The notes beneath the pieces are model-generated. The model was not told where the DNA came from and searched no databases. It saw only the letters and a program-made list of their open reading frames with translations. The translations under genes were made by a program, and so were the position numbers. Of a stretch of DNA of 38,591 nucleotides, positions 322-25,322 are shown piece by piece. Position 1 is the stretch's first letter, and each line of letters starts with the position of its first letter. The stretch comes from Candidatus Brachybacterium merdavium (GTDB lineage: Bacteria > Actinomycetota > Actinomycetes > Actinomycetales > Dermabacteraceae): contig DWZH01000065.1 of the NCBI GenBank assembly GCA_019118275.1, positions 1 through 38,591 on the forward strand, written 5' to 3'.

Positions 322-5060
<4,739 letters not shown>

Positions 5061-5061
<1 letters not shown>

Positions 5062-5952: not shown

Positions 5953-6009
5953 CTGCTGTGCATCAGTCGTCCCCCGGCAGCCGCACCGACCCGGACAGCA
6001 GGATGCGTG

Positions 6010-6082
6010 GCCTCCATAGCTCAGCGGATAGAGCAACGGTCTTCTAAACCGTCGGTCGCAGGTTCGAGTCCTGCTGGGGGCG
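6010..6082 (+). tRNA. tRNA-Arg (anticodon TCT)
   Basis: A 73-nt cloverleaf. The acceptor arms GCCTCCA and TGGGGGC pair over seven positions with one T-G pair. The anticodon stem ACGGT/ACCGT encloses loop CTTCTAA, giving TCT, and the T-arm is GCAGG-TTCGAGT-CCTGC. The discriminator is G and no CCA is encoded. It reads AGA codons, which are rare in such GC-rich genes. Confidence 0.97.
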
Positions 6083-6141
6083 CGGAACACCACGGTTGCA
6101 GGAGATCAGCTCGACGAGCAGACCACCGGACGGGAGCCGAG

Positions 6142-7023
6142 ATGTCTGTCCACCCGGAACGCACCTACGTGGTCACCGGTGCCGACAGCGGCATCGGCGC
6201 CCTGACCGCGCGGACCCTGCAGGAGCGGGGCGCGCGCGTGATCCGCTGCGGCCTCGGTGTGGATGTCGAGGTGAGCGCGGACCTCGGCGATGACGAGGGC
6301 CGGGCCCATCTGCTGCGAGAGGTCGAGCGGCTCGCACCGGGTGGCATCGACGGGCTCGCGCTGGTGGCCGGGCTCGGCACGCCGACTGTCGAGACGGTGC
6401 GCGTGAACTACTTCGGCACCCTGTCCGTGCTGGCCGGGCTGCGCACCCGGCTGCGGAAGAAGGAGGCCCCCCGGGTGGTGGTGGTCTCCTCCGCCTCGTC
6501 GCTGACCGCTGGTGACCCGGAGGTGATCGAGGCGTGTCTGCGCGGCGACGAGGAGGCCGCCGTCGCCGCGGCCGAGCGCATCATCGCTCGAGGTGAGGGC
6601 AGCTCCCTGTATCGCTCCTCGAAGATCGCCCTGAACCGCTGGGTGCGCCAGTCCGCGACCACGGACGACTGGGCGGGCACCGGTGTCCCGGTGAACGTCC
6701 TCGCCCCGGGGATCGTGGCGACCGAGACGGCGCGCGAGACGATGCTTTCCGACCCGGCACAGGTCAAAGTGCTCACCACCGCCCTTCCCCAGCCGCTTGG
6801 ATTCCCCGGCCCCGTCCAGGCGGTCGCCGACGCGCTCGTGTGGATGATCGGGCCGGAGAACTCCTTCATGGCCGGGCAGATCATCTATCTCGACGGCGGG
6901 GCCGAAGCCACACTGCGCGGTGACGGCCCCTACCGCGAGGGCATCCGGTACGGCCCGGCCGCGATGGCGCGGATGATCTTCTACTCTCTCGTGTCGAAGG
7001 CCCGGCCCCGCCGGGAGAGGTGA
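6142..7023 (+). CDS. SDR oxidoreductase, 3-alpha-hydroxysteroid dehydrogenase/carbonyl reductase-like
   Basis: A 293-residue classical short-chain dehydrogenase. The NAD(P) motif is TGADSGIG (12-19), the catalytic Ser is in VVSSASS (about 116) and the YRSSK pair is Tyr157/Lys161. The segment between Ser and Tyr is about 40 residues instead of the usual 13 or so, and VAGLGTPT...VNYFGTLSVL resembles the Comamonas 3-alpha-hydroxysteroid dehydrogenase/carbonyl reductase, which has the same long insertion. The family reduces ketosteroids or xenobiotic carbonyls; the substrate here is unknown. ATG 6142 has GGGAG five bases upstream. It follows tRNA-Arg by 59 bases and may be read from the tRNA promoter. 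Confidence 0.88.
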   Translation: MSVHPERTYVVTGADSGIGALTARTLQERGARVIRCGLGVDVEVSADLGDDEGRAHLLREVERLAPGGIDGLALVAGLGTPTVETVRVNYFGTLSVLAGLRTRLRKKEAPRVVVVSSASSLTAGDPEVIEACLRGDEEAAVAAAERIIARGEGSSLYRSSKIALNRWVRQSATTDDWAGTGVPVNVLAPGIVATETARETMLSDPAQVKVLTTALPQPLGFPGPVQAVADALVWMIGPENSFMAGQIIYLDGGAEATLRGDGPYREGIRYGPAAMARMIFYSLVSKARPRRER

Positions 7024-7064: not shown

Positions 7065-7592
7065 TCAGAGGGCTCGGCTGTGCGCGGAGGACTCCCGGTT
7101 CCAGTCGGCCACCCACTGCGGCACCTCGAGGTCGGCGGGGACCGGCCCGGCCTGGTCGAGCACCTCGCTGACGTCGACCGATCCGCCCGTCCTGCGCAGG
7201 AAGCGAGCCCGCACGATCGCATCGGCGTGGACGGTCCGCCCGACCCGGAAGACCTGCTCCATGTAGATCCAGCGCTCGTCGTACCCGATCACCCGCGTGG
7301 ACAGATCGAACTTCTGGCCCAGGGTCAGGGGCTTGCGGTAGGTGATGGTCTGCCCCGCCACCACCGGGTACCAGCCCTGCCGGCTGATGCGGTCCCAGAA
7401 GCGTGAGCGCAGCATCAGGTCCATGCGCCCGAGGTCCATGATCGACAGGAAACGCCCATTGTTCATGTGCCGCTGCACATCGAGATCGGCGAGGTTGACT
7501 CGGAAGGCCGTGTGGGAGGTGTCCCAGATGCTGAGCCGGCTCGCGAAGCGCACACGGATCATGAACAGCAGCAGACGCAGGTACATGTTCAC
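7065..7592 (-). CDS. THEM6-like hotdog-fold thioesterase (4HBT_2 family)
   Basis: A 175-residue protein with a hydrophobic start (MYLRLLLFMIRVRFA) and then the hotdog signature NLADLDVQRHMNNGRFL, where the Asp and Asn residues of the acyl-CoA thioesterase family are recognisable. Homologues are annotated as acyl-CoA thioesterase-like proteins related to human THEM6; the natural acyl substrate is unknown. GTG 7592 is preferred because GAGAGG lies seven bases before it; ATG 7586 is the alternative. It converges with the SDR gene and diverges from orn. Confidence 0.82.
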   Translation of the reverse strand: MNMYLRLLLFMIRVRFASRLSIWDTSHTAFRVNLADLDVQRHMNNGRFLSIMDLGRMDLMLRSRFWDRISRQGWYPVVAGQTITYRKPLTLGQKFDLSTRVIGYDERWIYMEQVFRVGRTVHADAIVRARFLRRTGGSVDVSEVLDQAGPVPADLEVPQWVADWNRESSAHSRAL

Positions 7593-7740
7593 GGTGGGGC
7601 CTCTCGACGTGGCGGGGCGGACGCTGCCGCGCTGTGTGACTCGATGGTAACCACCAGTTCGGGCCCGGCCGGCTCCCGGGGCCGGGGAATGCGCTCCGCA
7701 CCGCGCCGACCACCCGCCGGGCAGCAGCGCCGGGCCGCGA

Positions 7741-7746
7741 TAGTCT
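7741..7746 (+). promoter_or_regulatory. Candidate -10 box for leaderless orn fusion mRNA
   Basis: TAGTCT is followed by seven bases and GTG 7754. The alternative GTG 7748 is only one base from the box, so this spacing selects GTG 7754 as the likely start. Confidence 0.5.
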
Positions 7747-7753
7747 GGTGGAC

Positions 7754-9658
7754 GTGACATCCAGCTCCACTCGTGCCGCCAATGACCGCATCATCTGGGT
7801 CGACTGCGAGATGACCGGCCTCGACAAGCAGCGTGACGCGCTGCTCGAGATCGCCGTGCTCGTGACCGACGCGGATCTGAACATCCTGGGAGAAGGTGTT
7901 GACCTGGTCATCCGGCCGCCGGCCGCGGCGGTGGAGACCATGGACCCCTTCGTGCTCAACATGCACACCACCTCCGGCCTGATCGACGAGCTGGAGGGAG
8001 GGATGACCCTCGCGGAGGCCGAGGCCCTGTGTCTGGCCTATGTGCGCGAGCACTGTCCCGAGCCCGGCAAGGCACCGCTGGCCGGAAACAGCGTCGGCAC
8101 CGACCGCACCTTCCTGGACCGTGATGTCCCGGAGTTCGCGAACTGGCTGTCGTACCGCACGATCGACGTCTCCAGCTTCAAGGAGATCGCCAAGCGCTGG
8201 TTCCCCCGCGTGTACTACAACATCCCCGCCAAGCACGGCGGCCACCGGGCCCTGGCGGACATCCGCGAGTCCATCCAGGAGCTCAAGTACTACCGCGAGG
8301 TGCTCCTGGTCGCAGAGCCCGGCCCCACCACCGCGCAGGCGCAGGAGGCCGCGCGGGCTCTCGAGCTGCGCTCGGATCAGCTGCCCGAGGCCGGCGCCCT
8401 GCCCGCCCCTGCCGCCCGCACCCCCTGGCTCGACCAGCCCGCCCACCGCACCTGGCTCGAGGGTGAAGGCGATGAACTGCTGATGTTCGGCTCGGAATCC
8501 GTGCGCGAGGACGGCGGCTTCGCCTGGCTCGACGAGAAGGGTTCCCCGGATCTGTCCCGGCCCTCGGAACTATGGATCACTTGCCGCATGACCCACAGCT
8601 TCGCGCTGGGCCACCTGCTCGGCCGTCCCGATTTCGGGCGCTTCGCCGATCACGGCATCACCTCTCTGCGCGGCGCCTTCCGCGACGCCGAGCACGGCGG
8701 CTGGTTCGCCTCGGTCGCCGGCGGCAAGCCGGTCGACGACTCCAAGCAGGCCTACGCCCACGCGTTCGTGGTGCTGGCCGCGGCCTCGGCCACCGCTGCC
8801 GGGCGCCCCGGCGCACAGGAGCTCCTCGACGAGGCCCTGACGGTGCTGGACGCGAAGTTCTTCGACCAGGACGCCGCGATGAGCGTGGACACCTTCGACC
8901 GGACCTTCACCGAGCTGGAGGACTACCGCGGGATCAACGCCAACATGCATACGGTGGAGGCGCTGCTGGCGGCAGCCGATGTCACCGGTGACCGGCACTG
9001 GCTGGATCGTGCGGTGGGCATCGCCACGCGCGCGATCGATGAGTTCGCGCGTGCCAACGACTGGGCGTTGCCCGAGCACTACGACAGCGACTGGAATCCG
9101 CTGCTGGACTACAACCGCGACGAGCCCAAGCACCCGTTCCGGCCCTACGGCGCGACCGTGGGCCACTGGATCGAGTGGGCACGTCTGGTGCTGCACGCGC
9201 GTTCCGCGCTGATCGCGGCCGACGGCGCCGCCCCCGACTGGATGCTCGAGGCCGCCACCGCCCTGATGGAGAAGTCCGCGGCGAGCTTCGGCATCGACGG
9301 GGCCCCCGGTTTCGTGTACACCGTGGACTGGGATGGCTCCCCGGTGGCCCGGGAGCGCATGCACTGGGTGGCGGCCGAGGCCGTAAGCGCCGCTGCGGTG
9401 ATGTACCGGGTCACCGGCGACCGCACCTGGGCCGAACGCTACGAGCAGTGGTGGGAGTACATCTCCACCTACCTGCTCGATGCCGAGACCGGCTCCTGGT
9501 TCCATGAGCTCGACGGCGAGAACCAGCCACAGGGCCTCACCTGGCCGGGCAAGCCGGACATCTACCACGCCTTCCAGGCCACGTTGATCCCGCGGTTGCC
9601 GGTCACACCGACGCTGGCGGCGGCGCTGCGCGATGGGAAGCTCGACTCCCTGCTGTGA
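7754..9658 (+). CDS. orn: Oligoribonuclease fused to a YihS/AGE-type sugar isomerase
   Basis: One uninterrupted 634-residue frame holds two complete enzymes. Residues 10-188 are oligoribonuclease, the 3'-to-5' exonuclease that clears 2-5 nt RNAs and pGpG. Its DEDDh residues are all visible: Asp17 and Glu19 (WVDCEMTGLD), Asp117 (GNSVGTDRTF), His164 and Asp169 (GGHRALADI). An Ala/Pro/Glu-rich linker covers about 188-222. Residues 223-620 match the alpha/alpha-barrel N-acylglucosamine 2-epimerase family, closest in my memory to E. coli YihS, an aldose-ketose isomerase. The motifs ITCRMTH, NANMHTVEA (His399), GHWIEWARL (His471) and KPDIYHAF (His605) match its active-site positions. Free-standing Orn is about 180-210 residues and YihS about 410, so neither half is truncated. 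A physiological link between them is not known to me. Confidence 0.9.
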   Translation: MTSSSTRAANDRIIWVDCEMTGLDKQRDALLEIAVLVTDADLNILGEGVDLVIRPPAAAVETMDPFVLNMHTTSGLIDELEGGMTLAEAEALCLAYVREHCPEPGKAPLAGNSVGTDRTFLDRDVPEFANWLSYRTIDVSSFKEIAKRWFPRVYYNIPAKHGGHRALADIRESIQELKYYREVLLVAEPGPTTAQAQEAARALELRSDQLPEAGALPAPAARTPWLDQPAHRTWLEGEGDELLMFGSESVREDGGFAWLDEKGSPDLSRPSELWITCRMTHSFALGHLLGRPDFGRFADHGITSLRGAFRDAEHGGWFASVAGGKPVDDSKQAYAHAFVVLAAASATAAGRPGAQELLDEALTVLDAKFFDQDAAMSVDTFDRTFTELEDYRGINANMHTVEALLAAADVTGDRHWLDRAVGIATRAIDEFARANDWALPEHYDSDWNPLLDYNRDEPKHPFRPYGATVGHWIEWARLVLHARSALIAADGAAPDWMLEAATALMEKSAASFGIDGAPGFVYTVDWDGSPVARERMHWVAAEAVSAAAVMYRVTGDRTWAERYEQWWEYISTYLLDAETGSWFHELDGENQPQGLTWPGKPDIYHAFQATLIPRLPVTPTLAAALRDGKLDSLL

Positions 9659-9673
9659 CCGCGTCGGGCCGGA

Positions 9674-9691
9674 CACCACTGAGCAGTGGTG
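9674..9691. terminator. Short inverted repeat between convergent genes
   Basis: CACCACT and AGTGGTG form a perfect 7-bp stem around loop GAGC, placed 16 bases after the orn-isomerase stop and ahead of the convergent thiamine-binding-type gene. There is no T-tract, so it is at best a weak bidirectional terminator. Confidence 0.4.
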
Positions 9692-9759
9692 CCGCCGCAT
9701 CCCGGAGATCGGGGCGAGCGGCACCACCGGGCGGGCCCCTGGGATGGGCCGCGCCGCGC

Positions 9760-10110
9760 TCAGGTCTCGTCGCCGCGCTCCAGAGCGGCCTCCAGCCGCT
9801 CCACCTTCCCGTCGAGCTCGCTGGTGTGTCCGGGGCGGATATCGGCCTTGAGCACCAGTGAGACCCGCGAACCAAAGCGAGCGGTCTCGATGGTCGCTTG
9901 ACGCACCACGTCCATCACCTCACCCCATTCCCCCTCGATCTCGGTGAACATCGCGGACGTGCGGTGGGGCAGGCCGGATTCGCGGACCACGCGCACCGCA
10001 GCGGCCACCGCATCGTGCACGCCGGCGCTGTCCGACCCCGGTTCGAGGTCACGGGCGAGCTTCGGGTCGGAGGGCTCCCCGCTGGGCTGGACTGAGAAAG
10101 CGATGATCAT
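9760..10110 (-). CDS. MTH1187/YkoF-type thiamine-binding family protein
   Basis: A 116-residue protein of the small ferredoxin-like family (PF01910) that includes MTH1187 and YqgV, some members of which bind thiamine or related pyrimidines. Supporting features are the start MIIAFSVQPSG, the conserved TSAMFTEIEGEWGEVMDVV segment and the terminal basic/acidic helix. Such proteins are small cytosolic oligomers; the ligand here is not shown by the sequence. The start is ATG 10110-10108, and the codons upstream in the same frame look non-coding. It is a single gene, convergent with the orn fusion and divergent from tRNA-His. Confidence 0.82.
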   Translation of the reverse strand: MIIAFSVQPSGEPSDPKLARDLEPGSDSAGVHDAVAAAVRVVRESGLPHRTSAMFTEIEGEWGEVMDVVRQATIETARFGSRVSLVLKADIRPGHTSELDGKVERLEAALERGDET

Positions 10111-10236: not shown

Positions 10237-10313
10237 GGTGGGCGTAGCTCAGTTGGTAGAGCACCGCGTTGTGGTCGCGGTGGTCGCGGGTTCAAGTCCC
10301 GTCGTCCACCCCA
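10237..10313 (+). tRNA. tRNA-His (anticodon GTG), with encoded CCA and G-1
   Basis: The acceptor GTGGGCG/CGTCCAC pairs over seven positions. The extra G at 10237 faces discriminator C 10310, the identity pair for histidyl-tRNA synthetase. The anticodon stem CCGCG/CGCGG holds loop TTGTGGT, giving GTG. The T-arm is GCGGG-TTCAAGT-CCCGT and CCA is encoded at 10311-10313. Confidence 0.97.
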
Positions 10314-11416: not shown

Positions 11417-11490
11417 CCGCCTCAGCTGAGCTGCCTTTTCACGCCCCGACCGGCGTTGCGGCACGGCCCCCGGGGGCGCTGCGACAGGTC

Positions 11491-11496
11491 TAGGGT
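11491..11496 (+). promoter_or_regulatory. Candidate -10 box, leaderless P450 gene
   Basis: TAGGGT is followed by seven bases (GGAGAGC) and ATG 11504. The GGAGAG could also act as a close ribosome site if transcription starts further upstream. Confidence 0.45.
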
Positions 11497-11503
11497 GGAG
11501 AGC

Positions 11504-12688
11504 ATGAGCGCCCCCGTCTTCGACCCCACCGGCCTCGAACCCCGCTCGGCGACGGACGAGCAGCGCGCCAGCGGTCCGCTGGCCCGCACACCGGAGGGGA
11601 CCTGGGTGGTCCTCGGCCATGCGGAGGCGATGGAGGTCGCCGGCGACCACGACAGCTACTCCTCGGCGGTCTCGCGTTTCCTGCAGGTCCCCAACGGCCT
11701 CGACGGCGTCGAGCACACCGCCATCCGCGCGGCCACCGACCACTTCTTCGGTCCCGAGGAGATGGCGGCCTTCGAGCCGGTGCTGCGCGACGTCGCCAGG
11801 GACCTGGTTGAGGAGCTCACCGCGGATGTCGGCCCGGCCGGCACCGAGGTGGACGCGGTCGCCGCCATCGGCGCGGTGTTCGCGGTGCGCGCCCAGACCG
11901 CCTGGCTGGGCTGGCCCGCGGAGCTCGAACCCCAGCTGCTGCAGTGGATGGTCGACAACCACGAGGCCTCCCGCTCGCGCGACCTGGCGCGCACCGCCGA
12001 GGTCGCCGAGCGGTTCGACGCCCTGATCCGTTCCGTGATCCGGCCGCGACGGGCGGCCGGCGCGCACGCTCCCGACGACGTCACCAATCGGCTCATCCAT
12101 CAGCGGGTGGAACTGCCCGACCCCGAGGTGCCCGACAGCACGGAACGCTCGCTGCGCGACGAGGAGATCGTCTCCATCCTGCGCAACTGGACGGGCGGCG
12201 ACCTGGGGTCGATCGCCCTGTGCGTCGGAGTGCTGCTGACCGCGATGTCCACGAGGCCGCAGCTGGCCGAGCGGCTGCGCCACGGAACCTACGAGGAGGC
12301 GGTGGCCATCGTCGACGAGCTGCTGCGCATCGACTCGCCGTTCGTCTCCAATCGCCGTGTGACGACCTGCCCGGTCACTTTGGCCGGCCAGGAGATCGCT
12401 CAGGGCGAGCGGCTCCTGATCCACTGGACCTCCGCCAACCGCGACGAGCGCACCTTCCCCTCCCCCGATGAGTTCGACCCCGCCGCCAACACACCGCACA
12501 ACCTCGTCTACGGGACCGGCAAGCACGTCTGCCCCGGCCGCCCGCTGGCCACGCTCGAACTGGTGGTCGCCCTGCAGGAGCTGCTCGCGGTCGTCGAAGT
12601 CGCCCCCGCCGAGACCCCCGGTGAGCGCGAGATCGCCCCGGTCGGAGGCTGGGCGCATGCCCCCGTGGTGCTGATCCCGCGCACCTGA
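11504..12688 (+). CDS. Cytochrome P450 with atypical I-helix
   Basis: A 394-residue soluble P450. The haem-ligand Cys343 lies in YGTGKHVCPGRPLA, and the K-helix ExxR is Glu272-Arg275. The I-helix reads NWTGGDLGSIAL (228-239). In the usual A-G-x-D/E-T-T pattern the acidic residue is Asp233, but the following oxygen-activating Thr is replaced by Leu234. No ferredoxin or ferredoxin reductase gene is nearby, so electron donors must come from elsewhere. The substrate is unknown. The start is ATG 11504 behind a TAGGGT box, which agrees with where P450 similarity begins. Confidence 0.92.
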   Translation: MSAPVFDPTGLEPRSATDEQRASGPLARTPEGTWVVLGHAEAMEVAGDHDSYSSAVSRFLQVPNGLDGVEHTAIRAATDHFFGPEEMAAFEPVLRDVARDLVEELTADVGPAGTEVDAVAAIGAVFAVRAQTAWLGWPAELEPQLLQWMVDNHEASRSRDLARTAEVAERFDALIRSVIRPRRAAGAHAPDDVTNRLIHQRVELPDPEVPDSTERSLRDEEIVSILRNWTGGDLGSIALCVGVLLTAMSTRPQLAERLRHGTYEEAVAIVDELLRIDSPFVSNRRVTTCPVTLAGQEIAQGERLLIHWTSANRDERTFPSPDEFDPAANTPHNLVYGTGKHVCPGRPLATLELVVALQELLAVVEVAPAETPGEREIAPVGGWAHAPVVLIPRT

Positions 12689-12777: not shown

Positions 12778-13677
12778 ATGGCGACCGACGACCAGCTCAC
12801 ATTCCGCAACCCCGTCACCCGCTTCCCCGAGATCTCCCCACCGAAGCAGCATCAGAGCGAACCTGGCCTGGACGCTGAGCTCATGCCGCAGACCGACCGG
12901 GGTGAGCAGTCCTATCGAGGCACCGGACGCCTCGAAGGCCGCAGGGCGCTGATCACCGGTGCCGACTCGGGGATCGGCTCTGCCGTCGCGATCGCCTTCG
13001 CCCGCGAAGGGGCCGACATCGCCCTGTCCTACCTGCCCACCGAGGAGGAGGACGCCCAGCACGTCAATTCCGTGATCGAGCAGAGCGGCAGGAAGGCGGT
13101 GTTGCTGCCGGGCGACCTGGCCGAGCCCGACTTCTGCCGGCAGGTGGTCGAGGACGCCGCGCTCGAGCTCGGCGGGCTCGACGCCCTGGTCAACAATGCC
13201 GGCCGGCAGATCGCCATCGAGCAGTTCGAGGATCTGTCCGATGAGCAGTGGACGCATACCTTCGAGGTCAACATCCACGCGATCTACCGGATCTCCAAAG
13301 CAGCCCTGGCGCACCTTCCGGCCGGCGCGACGATCGTGACCTCCAGCTCGATCCAGGCGTACGAGCCCTCCCCCACCCTGGTCGACTACGCCTCCACCAA
13401 GTCCGCCATCAACAACTTCACCAAGGGGCTGGCCCAGCAGCTGGCACCACGCGGGATCCGGGTCAACGCCGTCGCCCCCGGTCCGATCTGGACGCCCCTG
13501 CAGGTCTCCGACGGCCAGCCCAAAGGCGCCCTGCCCGAGTTCGGGAAGTCCACGCCGTTGGGACGAGCCGGCCAGCCGACGGAGCTGGCACCGGCATATG
13601 TGTTCCTGACCTCCACGGAGTCCAGCTACGTGATCGGCGAGACCCTCAACGTCAACGGCGGAACCCCGACGCCTTGA
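12778..13677 (+). CDS. SDR oxidoreductase, GsiB/YhdF/YghA-type (general stress 39 group)
   Basis: A 299-residue classical SDR with a roughly 50-residue N-terminal arm containing PVTRFPE and EPGLDAELMPQTDRGE, typical of the Gsp39/YhdF/YghA group. The cofactor motif is TGADSGIG (60-67), NNAG is at 139-142, the catalytic Ser is about 190 and the YASTK pair is Tyr204/Lys208. In other bacteria these enzymes belong to general-stress regulons and reduce aldehydes or alcohols such as short sugars; the substrate here is unknown. The start is ATG 12778, six bases behind TACCGT. An isochorismatase-fold gene follows after 64 bases in the same direction and may be cotranscribed. Confidence 0.93.
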   Translation: MATDDQLTFRNPVTRFPEISPPKQHQSEPGLDAELMPQTDRGEQSYRGTGRLEGRRALITGADSGIGSAVAIAFAREGADIALSYLPTEEEDAQHVNSVIEQSGRKAVLLPGDLAEPDFCRQVVEDAALELGGLDALVNNAGRQIAIEQFEDLSDEQWTHTFEVNIHAIYRISKAALAHLPAGATIVTSSSIQAYEPSPTLVDYASTKSAINNFTKGLAQQLAPRGIRVNAVAPGPIWTPLQVSDGQPKGALPEFGKSTPLGRAGQPTELAPAYVFLTSTESSYVIGETLNVNGGTPTP

Positions 13678-17300: not shown

Positions 17301-19823
17301 ATGGCACAGATGCCGGACCGTGCAGACATCGTCGTCATCGGGGCCGGGGTGGTGGGCAATGCCGCCGTCAGCCACCTTGCAGAGCTCGGGTGGCGAGACA
17401 TCGTCCAGCTCGACAAGGGGCCGCTGCCCGATCCGGGCGGATCGACGGGCCACGCCTCGAACTTCGTGTTCCCCGTCGACCATTCCAAGGAGGTCACGGA
17501 CCTGACCGTGGACTCCATGCGTCAGTACCAGCAGCTGGGCGTGCTGGACAGCTGCGGTGGGATCGAGGTCGCCCGCAGCGCCGAGCGGATGCAGGAGCTC
17601 ACCCGTCGGATGACCTCGGCCATGTCCTGGGGCGTGGAGGCCGAGCTGCTCTCCCCCGCGGAGATCCAGCAACTGGTGCCCTACTGCGACGCCGGCCTGC
17701 TGGTCGGCGGGTTCCACACCCCCACCGGGGCGATCGTGGACCCGATCCGGGCCGGTGAGCTGATGCGCGAACACGCCCATCAGCTCGGTGCGCTCACCGT
17801 CTGCGCCGAGACCGAGGTGATCGATGTCGAGGTCTCCGGCGGGAGGGTCACGCGGGTGGTGACCGATCGCGGTGAGATCGAGACCGAGAGCGTCGTCCTC
17901 GCCTGCGGGGTGTGGAGCGCGCGCATCGCCGCCATGGCCGGCGCAACGCTCCCGCTGACCCCGGCGGTCCACCAGATGATCGATGTCGGCCCCATCCCCC
18001 AGCTCGGGAGCACCGAGGAATGGATCAGCTTCCCGCTGCTGCGCGACATGGACCGCATGATGTATGAACGCCAGCGTGGAGCCGATCTGGAGATCGGCTC
18101 CTACGCTCACCGCCCGCTCCTGCACCGCCCCGAGGAGATCCCCCCGGTGGGCGATCATCCCGGGCAGGCCACGCCCACCAGCTTCCCCTTCACCGAGCAG
18201 GACTTCGAGGAGCAGATGGGCCATGCCCGGGAGATGTTCCCCCAGCTGCTGAGCGACCCGGAACCACCAAGGACGCTGGCGATCAACGGACTGCTGTCCC
18301 TGACCCCCGACGGAGGCGCCCTGATCGGCGAGCTGCCCGAGGTGCGCGGGCTGTGGTCGGCCGCTGCGGTGTGGATCAAGGAGGCCGCCGGGGCGGGCAG
18401 GATGCTCGCCGAGCTGCTGACCGACGGACACAGCGAGATCGATCCCCACGGGGCCGACCCGGCGCGATTCCCACCAGCGGCGCGCACCCCGGCGCACGTG
18501 GACGCGCGGGCCGCCGAGGGATTCCCGAAGATCTACGGGATCACCCATCCCCGTGAGCAGTGGTTGAGCGACCGGCCCCTGCGCACCAGCCCCTTCCATC
18601 CCCGCACCCAGGCACTGGGCGCGCAGTACTTCGAGACGGCGGGCTGGGAGCGCCCCCAGTGGTACGAGGCCAATGCGCCGCTGCTCGCGGAGTATGCCGA
18701 TCGGATCCCGGCCCGTCCCCATGAGTGGGACAGCCGCTGGTGGTCGCCGATCATCGAGGCCGAGCACCTGGCGATGCGGGAGCGGGTGGCGATGGTCGAT
18801 CTGGGCGCGTTCGCGATCTTCGACGTGAGCGGGCCCGGGGCCCTGGCCTACCTCGAGCACCTCGCACTGGCCCGGGTCGACGTGCGGATCGGCCGGGTGG
18901 TCTACACACCGCTGCTGACCGCGGCCGGCGGGTTCCGCTCGGACCTGACGATTGTGCGCCGCGGCCCGGACCACTTCCGTGTGATCACCGGCGGTGCCGA
19001 CGGCGGCCGGGACTGGTCCTGGTTCGTCCATTACCTGCCGGGCGACGGCTCGGTGCAGCTGACCGACGTCACCTCCGCGGTGTCGACCATCGGGGTGTGG
19101 GGGCCGCGCGCCCGGGACCTGCTCTCCCCTCTGACCGAGGCCGACCTCGGCGACGAGGCCTTCGGTTTCGGCACGGTGCGCGACGTGCAGCTGGACAGCA
19201 TCCCGGTATCGATGCTGCGGATCTCCTACGTCGGCGAGCTGGGATGGGAGATCCATGTACCCGCCGAGCACGGGCTGCGGCTGTGGGACCTGCTGTGGGA
19301 GGCCGGACAGGAGTGCGATGTGCTCGCCGCCGGGATCGGCGTCTACGGCACGACCGGCCGCCTGGAGAAGGCCTACCGCCTGATGGGTGCCGAGCTGACC
19401 GGGGAATACGATCCCGTCGATGCCGACCTCGCGCTGCCGAAGGTGAAGCGGGCCGACTTCATCGGCAAGCAGCCCTACCTCGCTGCCCGGGAGCGGGGGG
19501 CGAGCGCCATTCTCTGCACCCTGGCGCTCGAGGACCGGCACGGGGGCGGGGACAGCCCTCGGTTCCCCACCGGCGGGGAGCCGGTCCTGACGCCCGACGG
19601 ACAGGCGATCATCGACGCACAGGGGCGGCGATCCTTCGTGACCTCGGCCGGTCCGGCGCCCTCCCTCGGCCGCTACCTGCTGCTTGCCTACCTGCCTCCC
19701 CAGCACGCCGAGGCGGGCAACCGCCTCCAGACCCAGTACCTCGGCGAACGCCTTCCGGCCACGGTGCTGGCCGTGGGACGCACACCCGCCTTCGATCCCG
19801 GCGACACCCGGATGAAGGGCTGA
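17301..19823 (+). CDS. Dimethylglycine oxidase/sarcosine dehydrogenase-like flavoenzyme with GcvT domain
   Basis: An 840-residue two-domain enzyme. Residues 8-380 form an FAD-binding amine oxidase: GAGVVG (14-19), then GGSTGHASN, where His51 sits at the covalent-FAD position, and His224 and Tyr255 align with the catalytic His225 and Tyr259 described for Arthrobacter dimethylglycine oxidase. Residues 420-830 are an aminomethyltransferase (GcvT-like) folate domain with Asp548 (GGFRSDLTIV) at the position that activates folate, and YVGELGWEI. The family oxidises an N-methyl group and channels the iminium to tetrahydrofolate, giving 5,10-methylene-THF. Length and order match that enzyme (about 830). 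The exact N-methyl substrate is not proven. Confidence 0.9.
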   Translation: MAQMPDRADIVVIGAGVVGNAAVSHLAELGWRDIVQLDKGPLPDPGGSTGHASNFVFPVDHSKEVTDLTVDSMRQYQQLGVLDSCGGIEVARSAERMQELTRRMTSAMSWGVEAELLSPAEIQQLVPYCDAGLLVGGFHTPTGAIVDPIRAGELMREHAHQLGALTVCAETEVIDVEVSGGRVTRVVTDRGEIETESVVLACGVWSARIAAMAGATLPLTPAVHQMIDVGPIPQLGSTEEWISFPLLRDMDRMMYERQRGADLEIGSYAHRPLLHRPEEIPPVGDHPGQATPTSFPFTEQDFEEQMGHAREMFPQLLSDPEPPRTLAINGLLSLTPDGGALIGELPEVRGLWSAAAVWIKEAAGAGRMLAELLTDGHSEIDPHGADPARFPPAARTPAHVDARAAEGFPKIYGITHPREQWLSDRPLRTSPFHPRTQALGAQYFETAGWERPQWYEANAPLLAEYADRIPARPHEWDSRWWSPIIEAEHLAMRERVAMVDLGAFAIFDVSGPGALAYLEHLALARVDVRIGRVVYTPLLTAAGGFRSDLTIVRRGPDHFRVITGGADGGRDWSWFVHYLPGDGSVQLTDVTSAVSTIGVWGPRARDLLSPLTEADLGDEAFGFGTVRDVQLDSIPVSMLRISYVGELGWEIHVPAEHGLRLWDLLWEAGQECDVLAAGIGVYGTTGRLEKAYRLMGAELTGEYDPVDADLALPKVKRADFIGKQPYLAARERGASAILCTLALEDRHGGGDSPRFPTGGEPVLTPDGQAIIDAQGRRSFVTSAGPAPSLGRYLLLAYLPPQHAEAGNRLQTQYLGERLPATVLAVGRTPAFDPGDTRMKG

Positions 19824-20778: not shown

Positions 20779-22008
20779 ATGCCCATCAACCCCGCACCCC
20801 AGGTCCTGCTCTATCCCCGCATCCGCAAGTCCCCGTTCTTCTACGCCTCACGGCGTCACGGGGTCGCGATGTACAGCGTCTACAACCACACCTACCACCC
20901 CCGCCACTACGGAGATCCGATCGCCGAGTACTGGGCACTGCTCGAGGGCGTGACCCTCTGGGACGTCGGCGTCGAGCGGCAGATCGAGATCTCCGGCCCC
21001 GATGCCTTCGACTTCACGAACCTGCTGATCACCCGTGATCTGAGCAAGTGCAAGGTCGGGCAGTGCAAGTACGTCTTCCTCACCGATCAGCACGGTGGGG
21101 TCCTCAACGACCCGGTCCTGCTGCGGCTCGAGGAGAACCGCTTCTGGCTCTCCCTCGCCGACAGCGACATCCTGCTGTGGGCGCGCGGCGTCGCGACCTT
21201 CGCCGGCATGGATGTCACGATCCGCGAGGCCGACGTCGGTCCCGTCCAGGTGCAGGGCCCCAAATCCTATGCGGTGATGCGCGACCTCCTGGGCGAGGGA
21301 GTCGCCGACATCGGCTACTACTACCTGAAGGACTTCCAGATCGAGGGGATCGATGTGACGGTCTCTCGCACCGGGTACACCGGGGAGCTGGGCTACGAGA
21401 TCTACGTCCACAATGCCTCGCGCAATGCGCAGCGCCTGTGGGCCCTGGTCTGGGAGGCCGGCCTGCCCCATGGCCTGCAGGTGATCGGCCCCAGCCACAT
21501 ACGGCGCATCGAGGGTGCGATGCTCGCCCACGGCGCCGACATCACCGTGGACACCAATCCCTTCGAGGTCGGCATGGGATACGACTGGATGGTCGATCTG
21601 CGCCAGGAGGCCGACTTCATCGGCCGCGCTGCGCTGACCCGGATCAAGGAGAGCGGTCCGGTGCGCCGGCTGGCCGGGGTGGAGATCGGTGGAGCGGCAC
21701 TGGGCACCTACAACGACGGCTCGATGATCGACGTCTTCCCCGTCCACCACGACGGCCATCGGGTCGGTCAGGTCACCTCGGCCTGCCACTCGCCCCGACT
21801 GGAGAAGAACATCGGGTACGCGATGGTGCCCACCGAGCTCTCCGAGCCGGGCACGGAGCTGCAGATCGACACCGGTCAGGGCCTGGTGGACGCGGTCGTG
21901 GTGCCCAAGCCGTTCATCGATCCCACGAAGGATCAGCCGAAGACCGATGTGAGAGGACTGGATTCCCCCGAGGCCCCGCTGGCCGGCACCGTGGCCGACG
22001 GGGACTGA
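20779..22008 (+). CDS. GcvT/DmdA-family tetrahydrofolate-dependent demethylase
   Basis: A 409-residue protein of the aminomethyltransferase fold, closest to the DmdA subfamily. VERQIEISGPDA, GGVLNDPVLLRLEENRFW and LADSDILLWARG resemble the Pelagibacter DMSP demethylase as I recall it. Asp111 is at the GcvT catalytic-Asp position. At 198-207 the protein reads TGYTGELGYE, the ordinary GcvT folate-glutamate motif (Glu203), where the Pelagibacter DmdA has SKQGG; I therefore do not call it a DMSP demethylase. The expected reaction is methyl transfer from an S-, N- or O-methyl donor to THF. ATG 20779 has GGAGG five bases upstream, so the earlier ATG 20767 is rejected. The downstream MetF-like gene begins five bases after its stop. 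Confidence 0.88.
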   Translation: MPINPAPQVLLYPRIRKSPFFYASRRHGVAMYSVYNHTYHPRHYGDPIAEYWALLEGVTLWDVGVERQIEISGPDAFDFTNLLITRDLSKCKVGQCKYVFLTDQHGGVLNDPVLLRLEENRFWLSLADSDILLWARGVATFAGMDVTIREADVGPVQVQGPKSYAVMRDLLGEGVADIGYYYLKDFQIEGIDVTVSRTGYTGELGYEIYVHNASRNAQRLWALVWEAGLPHGLQVIGPSHIRRIEGAMLAHGADITVDTNPFEVGMGYDWMVDLRQEADFIGRAALTRIKESGPVRRLAGVEIGGAALGTYNDGSMIDVFPVHHDGHRVGQVTSACHSPRLEKNIGYAMVPTELSEPGTELQIDTGQGLVDAVVVPKPFIDPTKDQPKTDVRGLDSPEAPLAGTVADGD

Positions 22009-22013
22009 GCGGC

Positions 22014-22874
22014 GTGGCCTCGTCAGCGGACCGGGGAGCGGGATCACCGAGCGCGACCACCGGCGCGCAGTTCGAGGTGATCCCGCTGCCCGGGGTCGAG
22101 GAGGACGTGGTCCGCCACCTGCCCGCAGCGGCACGTGTGACCATCACCTCCTCACCCCGTCAGGGACCGTCCGCCACCATCGACCTCGCGTGCGCCCTGG
22201 CATCCCGCGGCATGACCGCGGTGCCGCACCTGGCCGCCCGGGCCCTGCGCGACGAGAACCAGCTGGCCGGGATCCTCGACTCCCTGTCCGAGGCTGGGGT
22301 CGGGGAGCTGTTCGTGATCGCCGGGGACCCCGCGCAGCCCGCCGGGGACTTCATCGGCAGCCTCGATCTGCTCACCGCGATCACGGAGCACGCTCAGCCC
22401 TTCGTGATCGGAGTGGGCGGGCACCCGGAAGGGCACCCCTTCCTCGACCAGGAGGCGGCGCTGCGGGAACTGGCGCAGAAGTCCGCCCACGCCTCGTACA
22501 TCGTCACCCAGATGTGCTTCGAGGCGGCCCCCCTGCTGGCATGGATCAGCAGCGTGCGCGACCAGGGCATCGAGCTGTCCGTGCGACCGGGCGTCGCGGG
22601 GCCGGTGGGGCTGGGGCGCCTGTTGCGCATCGGGACCCGGGTGGGCGTGGGCACCTCGCTGCGGATGCTCGGCTCGCAGGGCTCGGGGATGCGCCACCTG
22701 GTCACTCCGGGAACCTGGGCGCCCGAAATCCTGCTCGATGACCTCACCGAGGCTTACGCCGATCCCCGGTACGGGCTCGATGGCGTGCACATCTACACAT
22801 TCAACGCCCTGGAGCAGACCGCGCGCTGGTGGGACGAGCACAGCGATCGCCGGCGGCACAGCGGACGCCGGTGA
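22014..22874 (+). CDS. MetF-like methylenetetrahydrofolate reductase
   Basis: A 286-residue flavoprotein of the MetF TIM-barrel family. Glu21 (FEVIPLPG) is at the catalytic Glu position, VPHLAAR and LFVIAGDPAQPAGDF (flavin/folate Asp) follow, and YTFNALEQTARWW ends the barrel. It interconverts 5-methyl-THF and 5,10-methylene-THF. Because it follows the DmdA-like demethylase by five bases, it most likely runs in the oxidative direction, recycling methyl-THF made by demethylation, as MetF does beside LigM in aromatic O-demethylation clusters. The start is GTG 22014 with GGGGA upstream. It is probably a catabolic paralogue and not the biosynthetic enzyme. Confidence 0.88.
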   Translation: MASSADRGAGSPSATTGAQFEVIPLPGVEEDVVRHLPAAARVTITSSPRQGPSATIDLACALASRGMTAVPHLAARALRDENQLAGILDSLSEAGVGELFVIAGDPAQPAGDFIGSLDLLTAITEHAQPFVIGVGGHPEGHPFLDQEAALRELAQKSAHASYIVTQMCFEAAPLLAWISSVRDQGIELSVRPGVAGPVGLGRLLRIGTRVGVGTSLRMLGSQGSGMRHLVTPGTWAPEILLDDLTEAYADPRYGLDGVHIYTFNALEQTARWWDEHSDRRRHSGRR

Positions 22875-24092: not shown

Positions 24093-25322
24093 ATGGTCTC
24101 CATACCTGTGGACAGCACTCTGGCGTTCCTGCGCGAGGGCTATCCCTTCGCGTCCAGCCGGTTCGAGGCGCTCGGTGAGGATGTGTTCACCACTCGTCTG
24201 GTGCTGCGGCCGGTGACGTTCCTGCGAGGAGAGGAGGCGGCCGCCATGTTCTATGGCGGGGACCGCTTCACCCGGCAGGGAGCGATGCCCGCCACCGTCC
24301 AGCATCTCCTGCAGGACAAGGGGTCGGTGCAGGCCTTGGACAGCGCCGCTCATCGCCATCGCAAGCGGGCTTTCATGGCGTTGATGGGCCCGGCCGCGAT
24401 GGAGCGGATCGCCGAGATCTTCGACCAGGAGTGGCATCGGGCCCGCGACCGACTCCGTGGCGAGGACCGCGTGCTGCTGCACGATCTGTCGCGGGTCGTG
24501 CTCACCCGTACGGCAGCGCGCTGGGCCGGGATCCCCCTGTCGGAGGCGGACCTGCCCCGGCTGACCACCGAGCTGAGCCTCATGTTCACCCAGGTGGCGA
24601 GGTTCGGGCCCGCGAACTGGTACGCCCAGCGGCGGCGGCGCGGCACGGAGCGCTGGGCCGCCGACCTGGTGCGACGGGTTCGCTCCGGGCAGCTCACCCC
24701 CGATCCCGGCACCACCCTGGCGGTGTTCGCGGACCACCGGGACGAGTCAGGCCGCCGGCTCCCGGAGGAGGTCGCCGCGGTGGAGATCCTGAACATCCTC
24801 CGTCCGATCGTGGCGGTCTCGCTGTTCATCGAGTTCGCGGCCGTGGCCCTGATCGAGCATCCTCGGTGGCGCCGCGCCTTCGGTGCCGGCGAGGAGGGCG
24901 ACCTGGAACCCTTCGTCCAGGAGGTGCGCCGGCACTATCCGTTCTTCCCCGCGGTGCCCGGACGGGTCCGCGAGTCGTTCGACTGGCGCGGGCATCATTT
25001 CGGCACGGATGACTGGGTGGTCCTGGACCTGTACGGCACCTGCCACGATCCGCGCCTGTGGGAGGACCCCGGCGCGTTCCGGCCCGAGCGCTTCCGCGGC
25101 TGGAGCTGGCAGGAGCACCCCCACACGCTGATCGCCCAGGGCGCCGGACGCCATGAGGAGGGTCATCGCTGTCCCGGCGAGTGGAGCACCGTCGAACTGC
25201 TGAAGCAGTCGGTGCGGCTGCTGTCCACCTCGGATCTGCGCGCACCGGCGCAGGACCTGTCGATCCCGCTCGACCGGTTCCCGACCAGCCCACGCAGCGG
25301 CGTGGTCCTCCAGCGGGCCTGA
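24093..25322 (+). CDS. CYP152-type P450 fatty-acid peroxygenase
   Basis: A 409-residue P450 that follows Bacillus P450 BS-beta (CYP152A1) along its whole length. It shares LREGYPF at the start, DRFTRQGAMP, DSAAHRHRKRAF, NILRPIVAVS, VQEVRRHYPF, LDLYGTCHDPRLW and HRCPGE. The haem ligand is Cys360, ExxR is Glu277-Arg280, and Arg237-Pro238 match the Arg-Pro pair that replaces the Asp/Glu-Thr of other P450s and anchors the fatty-acid carboxylate. CYP152 enzymes use hydrogen peroxide directly to hydroxylate fatty acids at the alpha or beta carbon, or decarboxylate them to alkenes, so no redox partner is required. Which product forms here is not decidable from sequence. Confidence 0.94.
   Translation: MVSIPVDSTLAFLREGYPFASSRFEALGEDVFTTRLVLRPVTFLRGEEAAAMFYGGDRFTRQGAMPATVQHLLQDKGSVQALDSAAHRHRKRAFMALMGPAAMERIAEIFDQEWHRARDRLRGEDRVLLHDLSRVVLTRTAARWAGIPLSEADLPRLTTELSLMFTQVARFGPANWYAQRRRRGTERWAADLVRRVRSGQLTPDPGTTLAVFADHRDESGRRLPEEVAAVEILNILRPIVAVSLFIEFAAVALIEHPRWRRAFGAGEEGDLEPFVQEVRRHYPFFPAVPGRVRESFDWRGHHFGTDDWVVLDLYGTCHDPRLWEDPGAFRPERFRGWSWQEHPHTLIAQGAGRHEEGHRCPGEWSTVELLKQSVRLLSTSDLRAPAQDLSIPLDRFPTSPRSGVVLQRA

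Follow-up and report, generated by a model that had tools for sequence, protein, structure and literature searches.

In Candidatus Brachybacterium merdavium, an oligoribonuclease (Orn) and a YihS/mannose-isomerase-type sugar isomerase are encoded by one gene, and this orn-manI fusion is a genuine gene with two domains that belongs to the genus Brachybacterium. The gene occupies positions 7754..9658 of the forward strand in the 38,591-nucleotide stretch of DNA analysed here (the window). Its translation is an unbroken frame, as claimed in a first-pass annotation of the window, with 634 codons and a single stop at the terminus, corresponding to a protein of ~70.0 kDa; the earliest possible GTG of the frame is found at 7748, two codons before 7754. 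Orn is usually studied as a small stand-alone enzyme, and here an entire genus appears to live with an Orn bearing a 45-kDa passenger. No published mention of the fusion was found in a search of the literature on the pairing, in which subscription papers were mostly beyond reach. The best explanation of the observations, to which a probability of about 0.75 is assigned, is that a true gene of the genus arose by the merger of orn and manI and encodes one chain whose two enzymes act independently.

The reality of the junction was assessed in relatives. A first search covered 98 genomes, including 38 of the genus (G000-G037) and nine of other genera of the family Dermabacteraceae (G038-G046). ORF analysis shows an unbroken junction in 37 of the 38 genus genomes (loci L001-L030, L118-L121, L045, L049, and L050), while G006, a genome that is 88% complete, gave no match to the fusion protein. 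Loci L015, L049, and L050 reach contig ends, and L045 has an open junction followed by a later break within the isomerase. Among the nine genomes of other family genera, one (G038) carries the fusion and eight keep orn and manI as distinct genes side by side. A list of the taxa with both domains in one protein, a check that had been suggested along with the original annotation, thus holds 37/38 genus genomes and G038. All counts of fused genes given below refer to 35 of the 38 fused loci, namely 34 of the genus and that of G038; L045, L049, and L050 (from G022, G005, and G003, respectively) are omitted. Third-codon GC in these 35 genes is 0.943 in the Orn part, 0.888 in the linker, and 0.946 in the isomerase part. 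The open junction in nearly the whole genus, together with the high third-codon GC throughout, therefore argues that the fusion is not due to chance. The source assembly is a draft in 137 contigs, and a sequencing or assembly error could in principle have deleted the stop between two ordinary genes. However, the junction is equally open in independent genomes, some of them single-contig assemblies, and such an artefact was rejected as exceedingly improbable. Near 8310-8420, where a stop or frameshift had been named as an objection, the translation stays open. The fusion is thus genuine and long-lived in Brachybacterium-type bacteria.

The oligoribonuclease domain, including its C-terminal tail, comprises residues 1-204 (7754..8365, forward strand). 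Its residues 9-193 are matched by PRK05359 at 242.4 bits, above the equivalog cut-off of 106, and the DEDDh set (D17, E19, D117, H164, and D169) is kept in 20/20 Orn rows of alignment A1, which has 34 rows, 20 scored for Orn and 29 for the isomerase. Score and residues bear out the earlier description of a complete Orn with all five DEDDh residues. The solved Orns of Mycobacterium smegmatis (MSMEG_4724, 7wik) and Blastococcus (9f7m) have the DEDDh residues and 52-53% domain identity in common with the fused Orn; sequence homology to them reaches residue 202-204 and takes in their C-terminal tail region, which can be aligned by sequence with the tail of the fused enzyme. The 7wik and 9f7m chains are 210 and 219 residues long, whereas the tail of the fused Orn runs on into an isomerase of 410 residues. 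The source genome holds one match to the whole fusion protein and one further PF00929 match, on C80, and no match to the DHH (NrnA-type) family. Because of this count, the fused Orn is probably the sole Orn- or NrnA-type dinuclease encoded in the source genome, although a second orn copy could conceivably have been missed in an assembly so fragmented. For the gamma-proteobacteria studied, Orn is described as a dedicated dinuclease (PMC6613908). A second Orn-like match, 38-41% identical and with an internal stop, is present in two family genomes (G023:C2:1707277-1707879 and G040:C13:382699-383301).

The C-terminal domain, of the YihS/mannose-isomerase type within the AGE fold, spans residues 225-634 (8426..9655, forward strand). 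PF07221 matches residues 254-609 at 380 bits against a cut-off of 23.4, and four solved YihS sequences are matched by this half at 402-407 bits. The NCBIfam model for D-mannose isomerase, NF051846, covers profile positions 1-400 of 401 and scores 486.7 bits, below its cut-off of 600. For annotators this means that the Orn equivalog passes and the mannose-isomerase model fails, so that the isomerase may go unnamed. R278, H281, H399, H442, H471, E474, and H605 are kept in all 29 isomerase rows of A1. H399 and H605 presumably correspond to histidines of the YihS active site, and H471 aligns to the position that the H248A mutation alters there (7ag4). YihS enzymes have a three-histidine active centre (PMC7762179), and H399, H471, and H605 are present in 29/29 rows. 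PF07221 and Foldseek both place the domain among the YihS-type (alpha/alpha) barrels, and the complete alpha/alpha-barrel with active-site histidines that had been read from the sequence is well founded on these matches and the 29 rows. YihS structures (PDB 2zbl, 2rgk, and 7ag4) share 44-46% identity and the active-site histidines with the fused isomerase and superpose on it with a TMt of 0.94-0.97, and the D-mannose isomerase 5x32 has the AGE fold in common with it (TMt 0.89-0.90). All four are single-domain chains, whereas the Brachybacterium isomerase is preceded by Orn. Its substrate could be mannose, glucose, lyxose, or sulfoquinovose.

In an AlphaFold2 model computed from A1, mean pLDDT is 89 and pTM is 0.67, with values below 50 at residues 1-9 and 208-220. 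Foldseek matches the Orn part of the model to the Blastococcus and M. smegmatis enzymes with a TMt of 0.75-0.81. The model deviates from these actinobacterial Orns with an rmsd of 7.4-8.1 over 193-198 columns, compared with 2.7-3.5 for three REXO2 matches; the modelled tail superposes poorly on the 7wik and 9f7m tails and is therefore placed unlike them. The mutual placement of the Orn and isomerase domains is not established by this prediction. Residues 193-202 (8330..8359, forward strand) form a C-terminal tail helix according to DSSP of the model, and this helix aligns in sequence with the partner-packing helix of M. smegmatis Orn. In that enzyme, a helix of the extended tail lies against the partner subunit and makes the dimer more stable (PMC9676404). 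The linker, residues 205-224 (8366..8425, forward strand), is predicted to be disordered. It had been described as a stretch of ~35 Ala/Pro-rich residues and is in fact shorter, given that Orn homology extends to residue 202-204 and the isomerase begins at W225; among the 35 fused genes its length ranges from 16 to 52 residues. In 12 pairs picked by the analyst, dN/dS is 0.025-0.184 for the Orn domain, 0.048-0.293 for the isomerase domain, and 0.03-1.5 for the linker. These ratios indicate purifying selection on both domains, and the connection between them is therefore under little sequence constraint. A stop in the linker would spare Orn, yet the isomerase is constrained, which suggests that the isomerase is kept for its own sake.

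Outside the genus, the parts of the fusion can be followed separately. A manI match is present in 46 of 47 family genomes, compared with at least 41 of 244 sampled genomes of the class outside the family. Among the matches listed for these 244 genomes, where up to five candidates were scored in each, there is no fusion, and among those listed for 246 class genomes it occurs in just two, both of the genus. In 15 of 16 chosen order-level loci outside the family, the next gene after orn is a same-strand tRNA-His, ~70-215 nt past the aligned end; L193 is the one locus lacking it. In four family loci (L110, L111, L112, and L114), orn is followed by manI and then by tRNA-His on the same strand, with 113-177 nt separating manI from the tRNA gene. 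The tRNA-His gene is on the opposite strand ~960 nt downstream in L113, L116, and L117, and likewise opposite, 144 nt downstream, in the fused locus of G038 (L109); no tRNA-His was seen behind the orn-manI pair of L115. The opposite orientation in L109, L113, L116, and L117, unlike that in the other family loci where tRNA-His was found, is a rearrangement common to these four and may mark kinship. In the window, tRNA-His(gtg) (10238..10313, forward strand), which corresponds to the gene next to orn in relatives beyond the family, lies 579 nt downstream of the fusion on the same strand, past a gene of the thiamine-binding-protein family (PF01910; 9760..10236, reverse strand) that stands between the two and is outside the system. 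Outside the family, tRNA-His thus adjoins orn in nearly all of the chosen loci, and none of the 53 manI loci there has orn in the flanking sequence retrieved, which reached 5 kb at most and was shorter for several. Comparison of gene order therefore shows that manI took its place between orn and tRNA-His in the ancestral Dermabacteraceae genome and that the frames merged later. The unfused pairs of Dermabacter and other Dermabacteraceae (L110-L117) have the same gene order as the fusion; in all eight, orn ends in a stop codon of its own, and manI is preceded by a Shine-Dalgarno (SD)-like site and has its own start codon. By this comparison, the two frames merged when the orn stop codon and the start region of manI were lost. 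Its stages, namely tRNA-His as neighbour, an adjacent pair in which manI has its own start, and a fused frame, are legible in living relatives, and the gene fusion can therefore be traced stepwise and tested for benefit.

How often the frames merged was addressed with trees. A marker tree of RpoB, RpoC, EF-G, and EF-Tu from 20 genomes, which replaces a tree of rpoB only, has the unfused G040 branching off first and G039 with G041 next. Unfused Dermabacter, whose genomes include G042 and G044, forms a sister pair with the fused G038 (100/100), and the position of this pair within the genus lineages is weakly supported. A single clade of fused rows is rejected on this tree (AU p 1.8e-5). It is rejected as well (AU p 0.0045) on an isomerase tree of 36 rows, which includes 16 of the 53 outside manI loci; here the genus rows are monophyletic (100/98), and G038 falls with Dermabacter as before. 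The pairing of G038 and Dermabacter agrees with the opposite-strand tRNA-His in G038 and three Dermabacter loci. The placement of G039 and G041 differs between the two trees, and the signal of the Orn tree is too weak to decide the fusion history. Two state changes are needed: the frames fused twice, or they fused once and separated again in Dermabacter. On the marker tree both histories are equally costly, and the isomerase tree leans towards two fusions. The unfused isomerases of L113, L116, and L117 (Dermabacter hominis type) sit on a very long branch of 0.93 changes per column; the L116 isomerase, the row used for this group, retains the tested active-site residues.

A single reading frame might still yield two proteins, if translation also began within the Orn tail or if the linker were cleaved. 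The start signals bear on this alternative. Ahead of the fusion, the -10-like TANNNT element TAGTCT (7741..7746, forward strand) ends 7 nt before the GTG start and represents a probable leaderless promoter. Such an element ends 5-9 nt ahead of the start in 35/35 fused genes, against a background of 0.006 per position, which indicates a message that is probably leaderless and begins at the orn GTG. A scan of 7500-9900 for sigma-70 promoters and terminators found nothing. An SD-like site with a start codon lies at most 17 codons before the isomerase in 8/8 unfused but 3/35 fused genes (Fisher p 1e-6, with kinship ignored), and at most 5 codons before it in 5/8 unfused and 0/35 fused genes, a difference that speaks against a retained manI start. 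Two separate products would be favoured by the predicted disorder of the linker, by a GTG that persists two codons ahead of the conserved W in 16/35 fused genes and is perhaps a relic of the former manI start, and by a start with an SD-like sequence at most 60 codons before the isomerase in 24/35 fused genes, 20 of these being 37-51 codons ahead, in the Orn tail. However, GA-rich stretches are common in this coding sequence, the count of 24/35 is uncorrected for them, and the position of the candidate site varies among relatives. The window gene has no in-frame ATG, GTG, or TTG between residues 184 and 243; widening the stretch to residues 175-243 adds a single candidate start, the GTG at 183, which no SD-like sequence precedes. 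The objection of a separate internal start, raised beforehand, thus fails for the window gene at the DNA level, where no SD-preceded start is found within 60 codons ahead of the isomerase, although relatives may have one. Altogether, two products from the fused gene seem improbable.

On the preferred reading, in which the chain carries two enzymes that work independently, the N-terminal half would serve as the cell's Orn and degrade dinucleotides left from RNA decay to mononucleotides, and the C-terminal half would interconvert mannose-type aldoses and fructose-type ketoses, as family, residues, and fold suggest. A leaderless message driven by a housekeeping promoter would yield the two domains in equal amounts. 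Because the tail helix packs on the partner subunit in mycobacterial Orn, an isomerase carried on a disordered linker behind that helix may result in an Orn dimer bearing two barrels. This reading involves neither a common metabolite nor a channel between the domains; expression would be shared, and dimerisation possibly too. The first-pass annotation had anticipated a bifunctional protein, shared control, or a nucleotide-sugar connection. Its covalent fusion of two apparently intact enzymes stands, and a bifunctional protein under shared control would follow from the fusion itself. A pGpG or nucleotide-sugar link is unsupported. No GGDEF domain was found in a search that covered 28 of the 38 genus genomes and was confined to the genus within the family; pGpG turnover is therefore unlikely as the reason for the fusion, and a role in pGpG/c-di-GMP metabolism as its main cause was rejected. 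The settling of manI behind orn and the later merger of the frames in turn explain the pairing without a pathway link. A functional coupling, selected more than once because the joining is itself useful, is a less likely alternative: hexose entry and isomerisation could be tied, in either direction, to RNA turnover or the dinucleotide pool, or the Orn dimer could assemble or stabilise the barrel. Two independent joinings are conceivable, as the fused rows do not form one clade on either the marker or the isomerase tree, and both the retention of the fusion across the genus and the prevalence of manI in the family relative to the class would fit. However, the equal cost of one fusion and one Dermabacter re-split on the marker tree, the lack of GGDEF, and the variable sequence and length of the linker weigh against such coupling, and the Orn and isomerase substrates are not known to have a common step. 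We regard useful joining as doubtful.

Several other genes of the window were recorded in passing. A frame of 1579 residues at 322-5061 (forward strand) contains a large Lhr-type helicase domain set (DEAD, WH_Lhr, DEAD_assoc, and further winged helices). Two cytochrome P450-type genes are located at 11456-12688 and 24093-25322 (both forward strand), and short-chain dehydrogenase-type genes occur in the same region at 6007-7023 and 12778-13677. A gene combining an FAD oxidoreductase with GCV_T lies at 17301-19823. Finally, a frame of 608 residues at 21048-22874 (forward strand) matches methylenetetrahydrofolate reductase on residues 364-516 only (56 bits), its first 360 residues being without a Pfam match at 1e-6.
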